Assembly (NCBI RefSeq): GCF_004122095.1 | Contig: NZ_SAWZ01000006.1 | Span: forward strand, 1 to 64,000 | From: Pseudoxanthomonas composti | GTDB lineage: Bacteria; Pseudomonadota; Gammaproteobacteria; Xanthomonadales; Xanthomonadaceae | Reading direction: 5' to 3' | DNA: 64,000 nt | Shown here: positions 2,996-38,333 of the stretch, one piece after another | Position numbering within the stretch: the stretch's first letter is position 1 | How the letters are laid out: each line of letters starts with the position of its first letter | Notes under the pieces: model-generated | The model's input: only the letters and a program-made list of their open reading frames with translations | Databases searched by the model: none | Told to the model about the DNA's origin: nothing | Made by a program: the position numbers and the translations under genes

Positions 2996-3612
2996 ACCTG
3001 CTGCAGGCCGGCGCCGGGCTGCCCGAACGCCGCCACTGGGTCTTCGACATGGACGGCACGCTGACCGTGGCGGTGCACGATTTCGCGCTGATCCGCCGCG
3101 CGCTGGGCATTGCGCCGCAGGAGGACATCCTGGGCCACTTGGCGGCGCTGCCGGCGGCGGAGGCCGCGCCCAAGCACGCCTGGCTGATGGCGCATGAGCG
3201 CGAGCTGGCCTGCCGCGCCGTGGCCGCGCCCGGTGCGTGCGCACTGGTTCGCGTGCTGCATGCGCGCGGGGACCGCATCGCCATCCTGACCCGCAATGCG
3301 CGGGAACTGGCCACGCTGACGCTGGATTGCATCGGCCTGGGCGAGGTGTTTCCGGCCGAAGACGTGCTGGGCCGCGAGAGCGCACCGCCCAAGCCGCGCC
3401 CGGATGGGTTGCTACAGCTGGCCGCGCGCTGGCAGGTCGCGCCCGAGCAACTGGTCATGGTAGGCGATCACGCGCACGACCTGCAGTGCGGCCGCGCGGC
3501 CGGCGCGCTCACGGTGCTGGTCGGGCCGGGGAACCTTTGGCCTGACCTGGCCGATGTGCATGTGGTTGATTGCGATGCATTGCTAGAGCGGGTAGAGCGA
3601 GGAACGAGTTGA
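2992..3612 (+). CDS. HAD-IA family hydrolase
   Basis: 206-residue haloacid-dehalogenase-type phosphatase. Motif I is FDMDGTLT with the nucleophile Asp19 and the acid/base Asp21; motif II is the ILTRN segment; motif IV is GDHAHDL near the C-terminus. The cap region lies between motifs I and II, as in subfamily IA. The frame is open far upstream in the shadow of the preceding gene. TTG at 2992, overlapping the upstream stop TGA at 2993-2995, gives a family-like length, so coupling with the lipoprotein gene is inferred. The start is uncertain. The last residues and the stop codon lie inside the left arm of a long inverted repeat, so the C-terminus may have been altered by that repeat. Confidence 0.85.
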   Translation: MNLLQAGAGLPERRHWVFDMDGTLTVAVHDFALIRRALGIAPQEDILGHLAALPAAEAAPKHAWLMAHERELACRAVAAPGACALVRVLHARGDRIAILTRNARELATLTLDCIGLGEVFPAEDVLGRESAPPKPRPDGLLQLAARWQVAPEQLVMVGDHAHDLQCGRAAGALTVLVGPGNLWPDLADVHVVDCDALLERVERGTS

Positions 3613-3728
3613 GAGGAACGAGGAACGAGTGAAGGCGGGCGGATGCGTGACGAGTTAGCTTGAGCGCACTCGTTCCTCGTTCCTCTCCGCTCGTTCCTCT
3701 GTACTCGTTCCTCTGCGCTCGTTCCTCG
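3595..3728. repeat. Long inverted repeat of GGAACGAG units (copy 1)
   Basis: Left arm 3595-3631 carries three GGAACGAG-type units. Right arm 3667-3699 is nearly its exact reverse complement, and two further reverse units extend to 3728. The loop is about 35 bases. It lies between the convergent HAD and PfkB genes and includes the HAD stop codon. It could act as a bidirectional terminator, though it lacks clear U-runs. Confidence 0.85.
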
Positions 3729-3749
3729 CCGCCCCAGGCGGCGCACGCG

Positions 3750-4682
3750 CTACAGCGCGTAGCCGAACTGCTGCTTGAACTGGTCGTTGAACTCGTCGAA
3801 GTCGAAGCGCTGGTTCTGGGTACCGGGGTGCTCGACCTTCAGCGCGCCCATCAGGTTGCCCATGCGGCCGATGGTCAGCCAGTCGCAGCCGCGCTCGATG
3901 CCGAAGATCAGGCCGGCGCGGAAGGCGTCGCCGCAGCCGGTGGGGTCGACCACCCGACGCTCGTGCGCCGGCGGGATGTCGAAGGTCTTGTCCGGCGTGT
4001 GCACCAGCGCGCCCTTGGGGCCCTGGGTGGTGATGTAGGCCTGCACGCGCGAGACGATCTCCTGCTCGTTCCAGCCGGTGCGTTCCTGCAGCAGGTTGGA
4101 CTCGTAGTCGTTGACCACCACGTAGTCGGCCTGCTCGATGAACTCGCGCAGCTCCTGGCCGTTGAACAGCGGCATGGCCTGGCCCGGGTCGAAGATGAAG
4201 GGCGTGCCCATCTCCTTGAACTCGATCGCGTTCTGGATCATACCCTCGCGCCCGTCCGGACCCACCAGGCCGATGGTCACGCCGGGCACGTCCTTCACGT
4301 GGTTCTCGTAGCTGCGCATCATCGCGCCGGGGTGGAAGGCGGTGATCTGGTTGTTGTCGTGATCGGTGGTGATGAAGGCCTGCGGGGTGAACAGCTCGTC
4401 GATCACCTTCACCCGCGACAGGTCGATCCCCAGGGTCTCGAAATGCTCGCGGTACGGGCCGAAATCCTGGCCCACCGTGCCCATCGGGATCGGCTGGCCG
4501 CCCAGCAGGTGCAGGTTGTACGCGATATTGCCCGCGCAGCCGCCGAACTCGCGGCGCATGCGCGGCACCAGGAAGGACACGTTCAGGATGTGCACCTTGT
4601 CCGGCAGGATGTGGTTCTTGAACTGGTCCGGGAACACCATGATGGTGTCGTAGGCAAGGGAACCACAGATCAGAGCGGACAT
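3750..4682 (-). CDS. PfkB-family sugar/nucleoside kinase (adenosine kinase-like)
   Basis: 310-residue ribokinase/PfkB-fold kinase. The N-terminal substrate region holds the di-glycine motif FGGCAGN (about 47-53). Signature 2 near the C-terminus is DPTGCGDAF, with the catalytic base Asp252 in GCGD. Length fits the family. It transfers phosphate from ATP to a sugar or nucleoside hydroxyl; many Xanthomonadaceae homologues are annotated as adenosine kinase or generic carbohydrate kinase, and the sequence does not decide between them. The gene is transcribed divergently from mreB across a 276-base gap that must hold both promoters; no strong promoter hexamers stood out there. Confidence 0.9.
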   Translation of the reverse strand: MSALICGSLAYDTIMVFPDQFKNHILPDKVHILNVSFLVPRMRREFGGCAGNIAYNLHLLGGQPIPMGTVGQDFGPYREHFETLGIDLSRVKVIDELFTPQAFITTDHDNNQITAFHPGAMMRSYENHVKDVPGVTIGLVGPDGREGMIQNAIEFKEMGTPFIFDPGQAMPLFNGQELREFIEQADYVVVNDYESNLLQERTGWNEQEIVSRVQAYITTQGPKGALVHTPDKTFDIPPAHERRVVDPTGCGDAFRAGLIFGIERGCDWLTIGRMGNLMGALKVEHPGTQNQRFDFDEFNDQFKQQFGYAL

Positions 4683-4883: not shown

Positions 4884-6005
<1,122 letters not shown>

Positions 6006-6014
6006 GGCTGAGGC

Positions 6015-6130
6015 AGGAGTGAGCGCAGAGGAGTGAGGAGTGAGCGAGAGCCTGCGCCAGCGCTTCGCCCCTTGTTTTCCTCGCTTGCCGCTGCCGCCCA
6101 CTCACTCCTCACTCCTCTCCACTCACTCCT
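6015..6130. repeat. Long inverted repeat, GGAGTGAG variant (copy 2)
   Basis: Left arm 6015-6044 and right arm 6101-6130 are near-perfect reverse complements about 30 bases long, with a loop of about 56 bases. The unit layout and spacing are the same as in the GGAACGAG copies, but every unit carries GT where the others carry AC, and the opposite arm is changed to match. It lies between the mreB stop and the mreC start, inside an operon. Confidence 0.85.
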
Positions 6131-6145
6131 AGCTCCCGCTCCCCC

Positions 6146-7150
6146 GTGCCTGTCTACGCCGGACCTCCCGTCACCAACCGTCCAGGGGAAGTGGCCAGCA
6201 CGCTCAAGCTGCTGGCCTATCTGGCGCTGGGCCTGGGCCTGATCTTCCTGGACCACCGCGGCGGCTGGATGCACGCGGTGCGCACCCAGGTCGGCACCCT
6301 GGTGCAGCCGCTGTGGTGGGTCGCCGGCCTGCCGGGCCGGCTGAGCACCACGGTGCAGGACGATGCGCTGACCCGCGTGCGCCTGACCGAGGAGAACGAC
6401 CGGCTGCGCAATGAGCTGCTGATCGCCAACGCGCGCCTGACGCGCCTGCAGACGGCCATCAGCGACAACGCCCAGCTGCGCGCGCTGCTGGGCGTGGCCC
6501 GCAGCCGTGGCCTGGATGTGCAACTGGCGCCGATCCTGAACGTGGATCTGGACCCGACCCGCCAGCGCCTGGTGCTGGATGCCGGCAGCCGCCAGGGTGT
6601 GCAGGTCGGCCAGCCGGTGATCGACGCCGGCGGCCTGCTGGGACAGATCACCGAGGTGATGCCGGGCTTTTCCATCGCCCTGCTGATCACCGACCCGGAC
6701 CATGCCGTGCCGGTGATGCTGGCGCGCAACGGCGTGCGGCTGGTGGCCTACGGCAACGGCCGCAGCGACCAGCTGCAGCTGGTCAACATCCCGCTCAACA
6801 GCGATATCCAGGAGGGCGATGAGGTCGTCACCTCCGGCATGGGCGGGCGCTTTCCGGCCGGTTTTCCGGTGGGCAAGGTGGTGGAGCTGCACCAGGACGA
6901 CAGCCGCGCCTTCCTGATCGGCGAGCTCAAGCCCGCCGCCCAGCTTGATCGCGGCCGCAGCGTGCTGCTGCTGCGCTCGGGGCAGGCCGCCGCGCCGCTG
7001 CCGGTCACTCCGGCCGAGACTGGCCCGGTGCCGGTGGTGATCGGCACCGAGCTGCAGGCCCCGCCGCCGCCGGTGCAGGCGCCCACCCCGGCCGGGATCA
7101 AGCCGCCGGTCAAGCCGCCCGAGCCGGCCGACGCGGAGCCGGACCTGTGA
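6146..7150 (+). CDS. mreC: Rod shape-determining protein MreC
   Basis: 334-residue periplasmic scaffold that links MreB and MreD with PBP2 and RodA. One N-terminal transmembrane segment (about 19-37) is followed by a coiled coil (about 77-105), then the paired beta-barrel domain with repeated Gly/Val-rich strands, and a Pro-rich C-terminal tail (about 290-330). GTG 6146 is the start; it directly follows the right arm of the inverted repeat, so the ribosome site may be affected by that hairpin. The stop overlaps the mreD start by four bases (GTGA), indicating translational coupling. Confidence 0.95.
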   Translation: MPVYAGPPVTNRPGEVASTLKLLAYLALGLGLIFLDHRGGWMHAVRTQVGTLVQPLWWVAGLPGRLSTTVQDDALTRVRLTEENDRLRNELLIANARLTRLQTAISDNAQLRALLGVARSRGLDVQLAPILNVDLDPTRQRLVLDAGSRQGVQVGQPVIDAGGLLGQITEVMPGFSIALLITDPDHAVPVMLARNGVRLVAYGNGRSDQLQLVNIPLNSDIQEGDEVVTSGMGGRFPAGFPVGKVVELHQDDSRAFLIGELKPAAQLDRGRSVLLLRSGQAAAPLPVTPAETGPVPVVIGTELQAPPPPVQAPTPAGIKPPVKPPEPADAEPDL

Positions 7151-9639: not shown

Positions 9640-10742
9640 GGGACATCCTGCGCTGGTTGGCCGAGCTGGCCGGCCGTTTCCTGCGGACGCTGGACTGGGT
9701 GCTGTGCCTGGCCCTGGGCGGGCTGATGCTGATCGGCCTGGCGGTGCTCAAGAGCGCCGGTGGCGATGGCCTGGTGATCGCCCAGGGCGCGCGTTTCGCC
9801 GTGGGCCTGGCGGCGATGTGGGGCCTGTCGCGGATCTCGCCGCTGCGGCTGCGCGCCTGGACGCCGATGACCTATGCCTTGTCGATGCTGCCGCTGCTGG
9901 CGGTGTTCATGGTCGGCACCGGCAAATACGGGCGGCAATGGCTGGACCTGAAGGTGTTCTACCTGCAGCCGGCCGAGCTGCTGAAGATCAGCCTGCCGAT
10001 GATGGTGGCCTGGTACCTGCACCGCATCCCGCTGCCGCCGCGGATCAACACCACCCTGGTGGCGGCGCTGATCATCGGCCTGCCCACCTCGCTGATCATG
10101 CTGCAGCCGGATTTCGGCACCGGCGTGCTGATCGCCGCCTCCGGCGCCTTCGCGCTGCTGCTGGCCGGCCTGCCGTGGTGGTGGGTGGGCGTGGCGGTGG
10201 CCGGCGTGGCCTCGGCCGCGCCGATCGCCTGGTTCTTCCTGCTGCGGCCCTACCAGAAGGACCGCATCATGATGTTCCTGGACCCGGAGGCCGATGCCCT
10301 GGGCGCGGGCTGGAACATCATCCAGTCCAAGATCGCGATCGGTTCCGGCGGCTGGTCGGGCAAGGGCTGGGGCGAGGGTAGCCAGTCGCACCTGAACTTC
10401 ATTCCCGAGCAGACCACCGATTTCGCCTTCTCCGTGCTCAGCGAGGAATTCGGCTGGATCGGCGTGGCCACCGTGTTGGCCCTGTACCTGGTGGTGATCG
10501 GGCGCTGCCTGTGGATCGCCATCGAGGCGCGCGACACCTACTCGCGGGTGCTGGCCGGCTCGCTGGGGCTGGCCTTCTTCGTCTACGTGCTGGTCAACGG
10601 CGGCATGATCTCCGGCCTGCTGCCGGTGGTGGGCGTGCCCATGCCTCTGATCAGCTACGGCGGCACCTCGGCGGTGTCCCTGCTGGCCGGCATGGGCCTG
10701 GTAATGGCCGTGCGCGGGCACCGGCCGGTGCATGGGTACTAG
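9636..10742 (+). CDS. rodA: Peptidoglycan glycosyltransferase RodA
   Basis: 368-residue SEDS-family glycosyltransferase with about ten membrane segments that polymerises lipid II during elongation. It contains the conserved GVPMPLISYGGTS segment near the C-terminus and the DFGTG motif in the middle loop, both SEDS hallmarks. GTG 9636 overlaps the PBP2 stop by four bases. Length equals E. coli RodA (370). It is followed directly by a long inverted repeat starting at 10743, before mltB. Confidence 0.97.
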   Translation: MRDILRWLAELAGRFLRTLDWVLCLALGGLMLIGLAVLKSAGGDGLVIAQGARFAVGLAAMWGLSRISPLRLRAWTPMTYALSMLPLLAVFMVGTGKYGRQWLDLKVFYLQPAELLKISLPMMVAWYLHRIPLPPRINTTLVAALIIGLPTSLIMLQPDFGTGVLIAASGAFALLLAGLPWWWVGVAVAGVASAAPIAWFFLLRPYQKDRIMMFLDPEADALGAGWNIIQSKIAIGSGGWSGKGWGEGSQSHLNFIPEQTTDFAFSVLSEEFGWIGVATVLALYLVVIGRCLWIAIEARDTYSRVLAGSLGLAFFVYVLVNGGMISGLLPVVGVPMPLISYGGTSAVSLLAGMGLVMAVRGHRPVHGY

Positions 10743-10892
10743 GAGCGAGGAACGAGTGGGGAGGAACGAGGAACGAGAGGGCAACGCCGCCGCTTTACTC
10801 GTTCCCCGTTCCTTTGCCGAACGACAAGCGAAAGGCCAGAGGGCACAGCTGTTGCTTTCACTCGTTTCTCGTTCCTCTCCACTCGTTCCTCG
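10743..10892. repeat. Long inverted repeat of GGAACGAG units (copy 3)
   Basis: Left arm 10743-10777 starts on the base after the rodA stop. Right arm 10861-10892 is its near-perfect reverse complement. The loop contains an additional reverse half-unit (10798-10814) that could form a shorter alternative hairpin with the left arm. It lies between rodA and mltB, on a stretch of about 250 bases with no gene. Confidence 0.85.
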
Positions 10893-10991
10893 CACTTAAC
10901 GCAAACCCTCAACTTCCCCGCGCATGTCGTTCTTGCCATTCATGTCGCAGAGGGGGAGTGAGGCGCAACCCCTGTGCTAACCTTCGCGCCG

Positions 10992-12149: not shown

Positions 12150-13510
12150 GGTGGTGGGCTGCGCTGCCGCTGGTCCTGCTGCTGGCCGCCTGCGGCACGG
12201 CGCCGAAGAAGGCCGGTGCACCGCCGCGCAAGGGCAGTCCGGTGAGTGCGGCCCAGGCCGGCAGCGACGGCAACTGCTACGGCAAGTACATCGCGGCGGT
12301 GGAAGACCCGAGCACGCGCGGTGACTACACCGCCGGCGGGCTGTACAAGCCCGGCGTGCGCGACACCACGCCCACCGACGTGCCGGACGTGGACTGCATC
12401 GCCGAGCCGCGGGTGACGGCCGAATCCCCCAGCGCCTACGGCAACCGCTCGCCCTACAACGTGCTGGGCAAGGAATACGTGGTGATGGACCGCGTGGACG
12501 GCTACGCCGAGCGCGGTACCGCCTCGTACTACGGCAACAAGTTCCATGGCCGCAAGACCTCCAACCATGAGGTCTACGACATGTACCAGTTCACCGCGGC
12601 CCACAAGACCTTGCCGCTGCCCAGCTTCGCGTTGGTGACCAACCTGGACAACGACCAGTCGGTGGTGGTGCGGGTCAACGACCGCGGCCCGTTCCACGAT
12701 GGCCGGGTGATCGACCTGAGCTACGCGGCGGCGGTCAAGCTGGGCATCGTCCAGCGCGGCACCGGCCGGGTGGAAGTGCGCGCGCTGACCCCGAAGACCG
12801 CCGAGCGCATCCTGGCCGACCGCAAGACCCCGCCGCGCGCGGTGCCGACCACCATCGCCACCGGCGTGCCCACGCGCATCGCCACCGGCAAGCCGGCACC
12901 GGCCAAGGCCAGTGCCATCGACGAGCTGGTCAGCACTTTGCCGGCCGAGCCCAAACCCGCCACGGCCACCGTCGCGGCGGCAGGCGCCGCCGCTGCCGGC
13001 ACGAGCGTGGCGGCAGGCGGGTCCACACCCGACCAGCCCTGGCGCTACCACGTCATCCCGGACACCGAACGCAAGCCCAGCCCGGAGCAGTTCGAGGCGT
13101 GGATGAAGTCCCGTGGCGTGCACGTGGCCACCGGCAAGCCAGGCACGCCGGTGGCGCGCGAGGTCGCCTCCGCGGCCCCGACCAGGGCCGCCCCCGCACC
13201 GCGCCCGGAAGCATCCACGCAGGAGCGCCGTGCGGCGCAGGCGGCGCTGACCGGCGCTGCGGTCGGCGCCACTGGTCCGGCCGCGGTGCTGCTGCAGGTG
13301 GCCAGCTTCTCCAGCCGCGCCAACGCCGACCGCGCGCTGGCGCAACTGGCCGCGGCAGGCATCGACGGCGCCAGCCTGAGCGACACCAGCAGCAACGGCC
13401 GCACGCTGTGGCGGCTGCGCGTGGCCGCCGCCGACGCGACCGCCGCGCAGATGCTCTCCAGCCGGATCGCCGGCCTGGGCTTCGGCGCGCCCAAGGCGGT
13501 CAGGGACTGA
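12146..13510 (+). CDS. rlpA: Septal ring lytic transglycosylase RlpA family lipoprotein
   Basis: 454-residue outer-membrane lipoprotein (LAAC, Cys16). The central double-psi beta-barrel domain contains GTASYYG, FHGRKTSN and VNDRGPFHDGR, the RlpA catalytic signature. An Ala/Pro-rich linker (about 240-370) leads to a C-terminal SPOR domain (about 375-450) that binds denuded septal glycan. It is longer than E. coli RlpA (362) because of the linker. Translation is coupled to mltB. In Pseudomonas, RlpA cleaves naked glycan; the same role is inferred here. Confidence 0.94.
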   Translation: MRWWAALPLVLLLAACGTAPKKAGAPPRKGSPVSAAQAGSDGNCYGKYIAAVEDPSTRGDYTAGGLYKPGVRDTTPTDVPDVDCIAEPRVTAESPSAYGNRSPYNVLGKEYVVMDRVDGYAERGTASYYGNKFHGRKTSNHEVYDMYQFTAAHKTLPLPSFALVTNLDNDQSVVVRVNDRGPFHDGRVIDLSYAAAVKLGIVQRGTGRVEVRALTPKTAERILADRKTPPRAVPTTIATGVPTRIATGKPAPAKASAIDELVSTLPAEPKPATATVAAAGAAAAGTSVAAGGSTPDQPWRYHVIPDTERKPSPEQFEAWMKSRGVHVATGKPGTPVAREVASAAPTRAAPAPRPEASTQERRAAQAALTGAAVGATGPAAVLLQVASFSSRANADRALAQLAAAGIDGASLSDTSSNGRTLWRLRVAAADATAAQMLSSRIAGLGFGAPKAVRD

Positions 13511-13513
13511 GAC

Positions 13514-13606
13514 AGGAACGAGTGGAGAGGAACGAGGAACGAGTAAAGCAGGCGGCGTGATGCGTCCTTCTCTCGTTCCTCGTTCCTCCTCACTCGTTTC
13601 TCGCTC
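13514..13606. repeat. Long inverted repeat of GGAACGAG units (copy 4)
   Basis: Left arm 13514-13544 begins four bases after the rlpA stop. Right arm 13572-13606 mirrors it with few mismatches; the loop is about 27 bases. It lies between rlpA and the carboxypeptidase gene. Confidence 0.85.
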
Positions 13607-15971: not shown

Positions 15972-16021
15972 GCGCCTTCGATTCACCGCACTTCGCCACG
16001 ATCAAGCCGCGCGAAAGACCT

Positions 16022-16107
16022 GTGGGAGCGGCTTCAGCCGCGAAGGGGATTTACCGGGAAAGGCCGCTTCGCGGCTGAAGCCGCTCTCGCACCGAAGCGG
16101 CTCCCAC
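16022..16107. repeat. GGGAGCGGCTTCAGCC-type REP element (copy 1)
   Basis: A 20-bp perfect inverted repeat (16026-16045 with 16067-16086) is followed by a further partial copy of the end (16094-16107). The sequence type is known as a repetitive extragenic palindrome in pseudomonads and xanthomonads. It lies in the 292-base gap after lipB. Confidence 0.85.
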
Positions 16108-36079: not shown

Positions 36080-36155
36080 CCCGATCTGCGGGATGGCCGT
36101 CACGAGCGGCTTTGAGCCTGGTCTCCCTGCGCTCGCAGCTGCGGGAGCGACTTGG

Positions 36156-36219
36156 GGGAGCGGCTTCAGCCGCGATGAGGCTTAACCGATAAGGCCTCTT
36201 CGCGGCTGAAGCCGCTCCC
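36156..36219. repeat. GGGAGCGGCTTCAGCC-type REP element (copy 2)
   Basis: A 20-bp perfect stem (36156-36175 with 36200-36219) around a 24-base loop. It is the same type as the element after lipB and lies between convergent XRE and rpiA, so it could terminate both. Confidence 0.88.
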
Positions 36220-36280
36220 ACACAAGCTTGCACCGGCCCGCGCTTGCCACCCGCACGGTCGACAGTCCGTGGACAGGCTC

Positions 36281-36936: not shown

Positions 36937-37043
36937 GAGGAACGAGTGGAGAGGAACGAGAAACGAGTGGAAGGCAGGCGCGAGCTGAGCGGAGGAGCGG
37001 AGGCGAGTGGTCACTCGTTCCTCGTTCCTCCTCACTCGTTTCT
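36937..37043. repeat. Long inverted repeat of GGAACGAG units (copy 5)
   Basis: Left arm 36937-36969 and right arm 37012-37043 are near reverse complements with a loop of about 42 bases. The right arm contains the stop codon of the EVE gene (37032-37034) and the left arm ends eight bases before the rpiA start on the minus strand. Confidence 0.85.
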
Positions 37044-38136: not shown

Positions 38137-38150
38137 TAGAAGATTCAATA

Positions 38151-38333
38151 CATCCTCCGCCAATGGCGATGCTTCGAAACGACCTTGAACCCGAGGTCCA
38201 AGTGGGACAGCTCTAGCGCCATCGGGCTTCCCGCTACAAGGCGGACTTGCGCTCCCGGCTTCCGTCGCTGCCCCGGTGTCGTTATTAAGGGACAAGGCGA
38301 ATGTTTTGACGCTGTCGCACACAGCAGAGGATG
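38151..38333 (-). ncRNA. ssrS: 6S RNA
   Basis: About 183 nt between zapA and fau on the same strand, the conserved position of ssrS. The ends pair (CATCCTC near the 5' end with GAGGATG at the 3' end) and the interior carries the GGGTTCAAGG-like 3' arm seen in the family. A TATACT hexamer (38346-38341) lies 7-8 bases before the 5' end, and no good -35 was seen. Known role: binds sigma-70 RNA polymerase in stationary phase and mimics an open promoter. Ends are estimated to a few bases. An artefactual ORF in this interval was rejected. Confidence 0.85.

Follow-up and report, generated by a model that had tools for sequence, protein, structure and literature searches.

Heptad hairpins with concordant arms at mreB-mreC and other gene ends: two subfamilies in one genome and junction dialects that differ between species

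How do both arms of an inverted repeat come to carry the same variant spelling? The question is raised by the gap between the co-directional genes mreB and mreC in the 64,000-nucleotide stretch of DNA analyzed here (the window), where all three GGAGTGAG-type units in each arm of the inverted repeat at 6010-6135 read GGAGTGAG. A preliminary description had presented this element as a copy with GT in place of AC in both arms, and that observation stood: three GGAGTGAG were identified per arm, and the spacing of these units in the 5' arm, 14 and then 7 nt, is mirrored in the 3' arm (Table 1). Six of the seven GGAGTGAG in the window belong to this element, the window total comparing with a mean of 2.0 and a largest count of 6 in 100 shuffles. 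An inverted-repeat scan of the window gave 80% complementarity over 50 nt (6010-6059 and 6086-6135), with an incomplete match between the middle heptads of the two arms (CGCAGAG and TGGAGAG). As RNA, 6006-6145 was predicted to fold at -71.4 kcal/mol, compared with -49.1 +/- 3.95 for shuffled sequences (z of -5.6, 0 of 200 shuffles as good), and three further copies of the hairpin gave z values of -5.2 to -8.1.

Table 1. Coordinates of the heptad elements and neighboring features in the window, and loci with exact arms in other lineages.
Feature	Position	Strand	Remark
mreB, upstream gene	4959..6005	+	ORF; PF06723, E 1.8e-150; ends 5 nt before arm
5' (purine) arm	6010..6044	+	GGAGTGAG units at 6016, 6030, 6037
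Loop, 56 nt	6045..6100	+	without match among the other loops compared in G000
3' (pyrimidine) arm	6101..6135	+	CTCACTCC units at 6101, 6108, 6122 (GGAGTGAG on the - strand), mirror of 5' arm
mreC, downstream gene	6146..7150	+	ORF; PF04085
AC-type heptad hairpin	3597..3729	+	before 3' end of pfkB-family gene (3750-4682, - strand)
AC-type heptad hairpin	10740..10898	+	between rodA-like (PF01098) and SLT_2 transglycosylase (mltB-like) genes
AC-type heptad hairpin	13509..13606	+	between rlpA-like and dacA-like genes
AC-type heptad hairpin	36938..37043	+	inverted repeat carrying GGAACGAG
6S RNA gene	38150-38333	-	Rfam RF00013, 82.8 bits
Exact 29-nt AC/GT arms outside Xanthomonadales	L232, L241, L243, L248, L251, L252, L269, L276, L298, L299, L304		among the matches listed

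The hairpin did not correspond to a known RNA or terminator. At gathering score, the 6S RNA was the only Rfam match in the whole window, leaving the 6010-6135 element without one; hits to plant and animal miRNA precursors reached at best 43 bits against a gathering score of 168, and were set aside as the response to a generic long hairpin. A scan of 5900-6250 for intrinsic terminators (GC-rich stem followed by a T-run, loops of 3-8 nt allowed) returned 0 sites, and the terminator reading was rejected on this basis. The AC spelling, GGAACGAG, was found at 25 sites in the window, 23 of them in four other inverted repeats and two as single units. A plasmid BLAST search with the element at 10700-10920 as query gave no match. 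The window also holds REP-like inverted repeats (GTGGGAGCGGCTTCAGCCGCG) at 16021-16091 and 36153-36222, and sequence resembling these is seen inside several of the long loops of heptad hairpins.

A search for further GT copies and intermediates in the window's own genome (G000, 4.33 Mb) showed that the hairpins fall into two subfamilies. Of the 317 doublets matching GGARYGAGGARYGAG, 155 were AC-AC, 144 were GT-GT and only 18 were neither; GT is a second large subfamily of this genome, not the lone odd variant it had seemed to be. Arms of the AC type read GAGGC-GAGGAAC-GAGTGGA-GAGGAAC-GAGGAAC-GAGTGAA, while the GT-type unit is GAGGAGT. The genome has in addition 59 GGGATTS doublets, and 0 of either GGGAATS or GTGATTS. 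Reversed-pattern controls were zero for AC, GGGATTS, GGGAATS and GTGATTS, but not for GT, where the reversed pattern also fits the array; the genome-wide counts are free of the sampling bias that affects the arm pairs described below. Within one unit, A is linked to C, and G to T. Since these bases are adjacent and not paired with each other, their linkage is not explained by pairing but can be explained by whole-unit copying, and the purity of 299 of the 317 doublets argues for copying of entire units over compensation at single bases. The many paired changes of the preliminary description are therefore not many independent events. Compensatory mutation base by base, under selection for an RNA stem, would have routes from AC to GT (A-U to G-U to G-C, and C-G to U-G to U-A), but the rarity of intermediate units and the lack of pairing between the two linked bases both speak against it.

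The arms of these hairpins are nearly always concordant. We collected 353 kb of G000 stretches around doublet matches, the window included, and identified 247 arms of at least two units, 206 of them allele-pure. Neighbors within 450 bp lay in purine-then-pyrimidine order in 94 cases and in the opposite order in 5, so that the elements have a single polarity. Both arms carried the same majority allele in 90 of the 94 pairs (maximum of 68 in 20,000 permutations), the scarcity of mixed arms being partly due to the choice of stretches by doublets. This agreement partly supports the earlier proposal that a folded form is kept or that one arm was copied from the other, and arms drifting apart without pairing were not seen in the arm-by-arm comparison. 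Neighbors that are not partners also tend to agree (5 of 5 in pyrimidine-then-purine order and 20 of 26 on the same strand, both small numbers), and part of the arm agreement may thus be regional. Discordance was seen in four pairs (C1:620977, C18:163989, C19:179095 and C20:148581); the pair at C20:148581 is a clean chimera with a GT GT GT arm facing an AC AC AC arm. Nested hairpins occur as well, for example at C18:143993, where outer AC arms enclose inner doubled GT arms on both sides.

Most loops, in contrast to the arms, are unrelated even where the arms are near-identical. Eighty of the 94 loops were compared, the other 14 being too short once trimmed or unreadable, and 67 had no match to any other (E < 0.001), although the comparison missed similar neighboring copies at C12:416525/416704 and C18:105448/105649. 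The 13 matching loops comprise seven long ones with shared longer repeats, which are REP-like in our visual reading, two local duplications (four loops) and one 13-nt match. The 56-nt loop between mreB and mreC matches none of the other loops compared, contrary to the earlier view that the spacer is retained. With respect to genes, the hairpins sit at 3' ends: 47 of the 94 lie between co-directional genes, 32 between convergent and 1 between divergent ones, with 7 'inside' called ORFs and 7 at stretch edges (ORFs from a home-made caller; baseline of 93 co-directional, 44 convergent and 17 divergent gaps, element-bearing gaps included). Stop codons are close, at a median of 11 nt (111 gene ends, 82 of them within 50 nt), and start codons lie farther off, at a median of 69 nt (49 gene starts, 23 of them within 50).

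Concordant arms are also what would be predicted by whole-element mobility alone, that is, by a REPIN-like miniature mobile element with two or more founder subfamilies, which were concordant from the outset and whose loops then decayed. Frequent compensatory changes are reported for REPIN hairpins in an extract of PMC3116915, and the arm is present throughout Xanthomonadales and sporadically in contigs from other phyla, both in keeping with mobility. Against it stand the unrelated loops of copies with near-identical arms, and the comparison of Y1_Tnp presence with heptad abundance per genome. Mobilization by a RAYT appears doubtful, as no consistent link to Y1_Tnp was found among the genomes scored: G034 has 0 Y1_Tnp matches and 225 GGGATT doublets, G000 has 1 match, and in G025, G026 and G031 Y1_Tnp is present although all five doublets tested are absent.

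In order to follow single elements through evolution, we compared the same junctions in 38 congeneric genomes, the genus apparently being Pseudoxanthomonas: mreB-mreC in all 38, and rodA-mltB, rlpA-dacA and hslV-hslU at 30 loci each. The last junction is what we take to be hslV-hslU, with PF00227 and PF00004 matches in support. The heptad spelling, or dialect, at a given junction varies by species. GGAACGA, GGAGTGA and mixtures of the two occur, as do GGGAATC/G, GGGATTC/G, GTGATTC/G, GGGACCC/G and GGTT-type units. Hairpins whose stem scored higher than 20 shuffles and whose arms each held two or more known units were present at 14 of 38 mreB-mreC, 9 of 28 rodA-mltB, 3 of 30 rlpA-dacA and 10 of 30 hslV-hslU junctions; the remaining junctions had no heptad hairpin by this rule. 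Seven dialects were represented, and one dialect dominated both arms in 32 of the 36 hairpins, a figure that is circular with regard to concordance, as the hairpins were selected by complementarity, and is not used here as evidence of arm agreement. Besides G000, the rule picks out an rlpA-dacA hairpin only in G037 and, weakly, in G010, both with a dialect unlike that of G000; a gain in G000, with none in 27 of the 29 other genomes compared, favors mobility. The rodA-mltB element of G037 is also present in Pseudoxanthomonas yeongjuensis (L250).

According to genome-wide doublet counts, each genome has its own mix of dialects. G001 has 293 GGGATTS and 218 GGGAATS doublets and no AC or GT, and G028 has 78 GTGATTS, 38 GGGATTS and 14 GT. 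In G001, a row of 98 perfect GGGAATC units (C1:326879-327564) contributes 97 of the 218 GGGAATS doublets. The hslV-hslU gap of G036 (L351, 405 nt) contains stacked heptad arms that are palindromic overall, with a stem score of 48.8 against 10.5 for shuffles over its first 330 nt.

For the mreB-mreC junction, eight of the 38 sequences, chosen for AC/GT units and similar boundaries, were aligned; G037 and G014, likewise of the AC/GT type, were omitted for their much longer loops. Over 30 stem pairs, 88.8% of cells were paired (shuffled mean 86.7), and 7 of the 30 pairs had changed on both sides, compared with a shuffled mean of 2.6 (2 of 500 shuffles as high) and with 0-2 when partners were slid by 1-3 columns. 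Among five measures, further pair types was not above shuffles (310 of 500). This covariation in eight species, in excess of shuffled and slid controls, is what base-by-base compensation would leave, and it also bears out the preliminary description in so far as paired changes do occur here. Double-sided changes come from G000 at columns 14/137 and 15/136, the outer unit that turned from AC to GT, and at 33/117, with 29/122 common to G013. Column 15/136 is a C-G pair in 7 of the 8 sequences, and the GT of the outer unit in G000 is therefore the minority state. The loop of G000 does not clearly align with those of its seven relatives (z of -0.9 to 2.6, the best two reached by 26 of 2000 shuffles), so that a change of the arms in place and a replacement by another GT element are indistinguishable at this junction.

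More informative are close relatives that differ in dialect. By a visual reading of dialects, looser than the rule given above, such neighbors in the mreB plus mreC tree are G001/G015 and G008/G021, at two junctions each, and G009/G029, G016/G027 and G012/G028. Over 57.6 kb, G001 and G015 share 93.1% identity, and their rodA-mltB hairpins differ in each unit of the two arms. The units of G001 are GGGATT, with a single GGGATA, and those of G015 are GGGAAT, with one GAGAAT in each arm; GGGAAT is also the spelling in G022, the next relative. The flanks are conserved (11 of 11 positions on the left, 32 of 35 on the right) and the loop is homologous (21 of 27 with a 4-nt gap, 0 of 2000 shuffles), but arm identity is only 20/28 and 21/29. 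Five base pairs have changed on both sides, four from T-A to A-T and one from C-G to G-C, and the 34-pair stems contain 3 (G001) and 4 (G015) non-Watson-Crick pairs; the register shifted by 7 also pairs well. Stepwise compensation would here require several mismatched intermediates, the T-A to A-T transversions having no wobble intermediate and occurring several at once within 93% genome identity, and copying, which has no such need, fits better. We consider base-by-base compensation quite improbable. The switch of both arms with loop and flanks retained also weighs against mobility as the only process, a reading that we regard as rather unlikely.

Other switches are of a different kind. G009 and G029 are identical at 584 of 600 positions on each side of mreB-mreC, and their units read GGGAAT and GGGATT, respectively; the loops fail to align in either orientation (z not above 3), so that arms and loop differ together, as mobility would have it. 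The loop was exchanged with the arms also in G016/G027 at mreB-mreC, and in G012/G028 and G001/G015 at hslV-hslU. Since the loop is kept in one switch and exchanged in the others, hairpins change by no fewer than two routes, one that rewrites the arms and one that replaces the hairpin as a whole, and arm-only copying does not account for all switches. At hslV-hslU, the sister species G028 and G012 have a GTGATTC hairpin (L327) and a GGAGTGA hairpin (L325), respectively, with loops that do not clearly align. In joined stretches of the same two genomes (G012 39580 and G028 39257), a GT heptad hairpin in G012 has a REP-like pair as its counterpart in G028.

A single-arm array points to the process within an arm. 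In G034 (joined stretch near 153100; L355-L374) it reads CCCGAAT x7 and CCCGATT x1, and in the sister genome G035 (near 152790) CCCGACT x6, CCCGAAT x1, CCCGATT x10, CCCGAAT x4 and CCCGATT x3; we infer that variant heptads were amplified in place, as slippage would do. As to the loop, those of G012 and G028 at rodA-mltB resemble the G001 loop in inverted rather than direct orientation (z of 7.7 vs 2.8 and 5.9 vs 1.4), the 373 cross-junction pairs that served as background reaching at most 4.3 direct and 4.2 inverted. In this comparison of 34 hand-chosen loops, z exceeded 3 in inverted orientation for 11 of 188 same-junction pairs (background 8 of 373) and in direct orientation for 27 of 188 (background 16 of 373). 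A second inversion was sought in 200 kb each of G034 and G035, covering four of the five heptad clusters of G034, and none was found: two clusters are paired hairpins with the same dialect in both genomes and direct loop z values of 9.9 and 5.0, and two are single arrays. One directly homologous loop pair of these genomes also scores 5.4 inverted, as partly self-complementary loops would, which weakens the evidence for inversion. The putative loop inversion at rodA-mltB, seen at one junction and in two sister species, is a hint only.

The mreB-mreC element is one of many dispersed tandem-heptad hairpins of this genome, and we think it probable that its GT state was acquired as units or arms, through slippage and copying between arms or copies that yield an mRNA hairpin, and not by independent compensatory point mutations. 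A variant heptad would spread along an arm by 7-nt slippage, and a template switch through the hairpin might then copy it to the other arm; alternatively, both arms could be overwritten by conversion from another copy. Whole elements would in addition be exchanged or inserted anew, and the spread of a dialect to many sites would require transfer between copies. A further, more tentative possibility is that the hairpin form, and not the sequence, is what is inherited at fixed operon junctions, each genome rewriting both arms in its own dialects by copying between arms and copies, perhaps flipping the loop. This would amount to concerted evolution of a dispersed structural element, possibly through a dedicated copying activity, with the same arm in several phyla.

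The position behind stop codons in gaps between co-directional genes, the strong predicted RNA stems without a terminator signature and the scarcity in divergent gaps suggest a hairpin acting in mRNA, with protection or processing of transcript ends as its putative function. Once transcribed, it might protect 3' ends or be processed by RNase III between cistrons. A different function, formation of a G-quadruplex or other tetraplex by the G-rich strand with arm pairing as a secondary feature, appears very improbable to us. The GGGAATC, GGGATTC and GGGACCC dialects do possess the G-tracts for it, and circular dichroism (CD) evidence has been given for oligonucleotides of the consensus repeat (extract of Rehm et al. 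2015, PMC4692102), but the GGAACGA, GGAGTGA and GTGATTC dialects at the same junctions hold at most GG, and the palindrome is the feature common to all. Dialects that lack GGG occupy the same junctions, which speaks against a G-quadruplex as the role common to this widespread class of repeats. Paired changes in a palindrome are usually read as RNA structure under selection; the whole-unit changes described here fit arm-to-arm copying better. This makes the heptad repeats a suitable natural system for examining template-switch mutagenesis, and it calls for caution in covariation-based RNA discovery.

An exact scan of GTDB genomes with GGARYGAGTGGAGAGGARYGAGGARYGAG matched at least 82 stretches (about 1e-4 expected by chance, by our own estimate). 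The matches listed are mostly from Lysobacter, Rhodanobacter, Dyella, Frateuria, Fulvimonas, Pseudoxanthomonas and Stenotrophomonas, and 11 loci among them are in contigs assigned to Chloroflexota, Planctomycetes, Actinomycetota, other Proteobacteria and a Porphyromonadaceae MAG, possibly by contamination (Table 1). A facing arm is present in the isolate Halochromatium roseum (L252), and a facing pyrimidine-rich stretch with one unit in Roseiflexus (L248) and a Planctomycetales MAG (L241). In 80 of the loci listed, 57 of 87 arms had at least two opposite units no more than 250 nt away, the majority allele being shared in 46 of the 57. The open-access literature yielded no paper for the 14-mer GAACGAGGAACGAG; for GGAACGAG, none of the matches listed concerns these repeats by its title, and no description of the AC/GT repeats was found among the matches listed on heptamer repeats of these genera.

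The class as such is already known. According to extracts of Rehm et al. (2015; PMC4692102), GGGAATC heptameric repeats occur at 186 and 183 sites in two Xanthomonas genomes, with 70 and 75 convergent inverted pairs, near stop codons and under-represented between divergent genes; the gene context is the same in related species for 83%, variation in length and sequence is noted, and most such repeats are transcribed in Xanthomonas axonopodis. The extracts stress G-quadruplexes and propose a G4 function for the repeats. The present elements share the tandem 7-nt units, convergent pairs, intergenic location near stops and rarity between divergent genes, and belong to this class of heptameric inverted repeats in the broad sense; in the strict sense of a GGGAATC unit capable of forming G4 they do not, their units being GGAGTGA or GGAACGA, with 0 GGGAATS in G000. 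Template-switch mutagenesis between inverted-repeat arms, which homogenizes arms and inverts spacers, is described in an extract of PMC8604942, there as a mutational process in yeast coding DNA and not as an element family. REPINs and REPs (Bertels and Rainey 2011; PMC3116915, extract) are likewise dispersed extragenic hairpins with conserved inverted ends and a less conserved spacer, in which compensatory changes are common; here, however, the arms are tandem heptads, abundance does not follow the Y1 transposase, and the GTAG/CGTC tag is lacking (14 GTAG and 6 CGTC in 188 outer flanks of 20 nt, against 29 GTAG in shuffled flanks, and thus no enrichment). Correia elements of Neisseria (PMC2649163, extract) are similar in being dispersed inverted repeats near genes, able to bind RNase III, but have a conserved core between the repeats, whereas the loops here are mostly unrelated, the arms are heptad arrays and the role of RNase III is putative. 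The TAACTGA heptamers (MacGregor 2015; PMC4679880, extract) are also intergenic heptads in unrelated phyla, but they are repeated in direct orientation, apart from a single inverted case in the genome described, and lie mostly before start codons, unlike those studied here. Compared with the Xanthomonas GGGAATC repeats as set out in the extracts of PMC4692102, the present work adds dialects spelled without GGG runs, two subfamilies in one genome, a measure of concordance arm by arm, and the exchange of dialects at fixed junctions.
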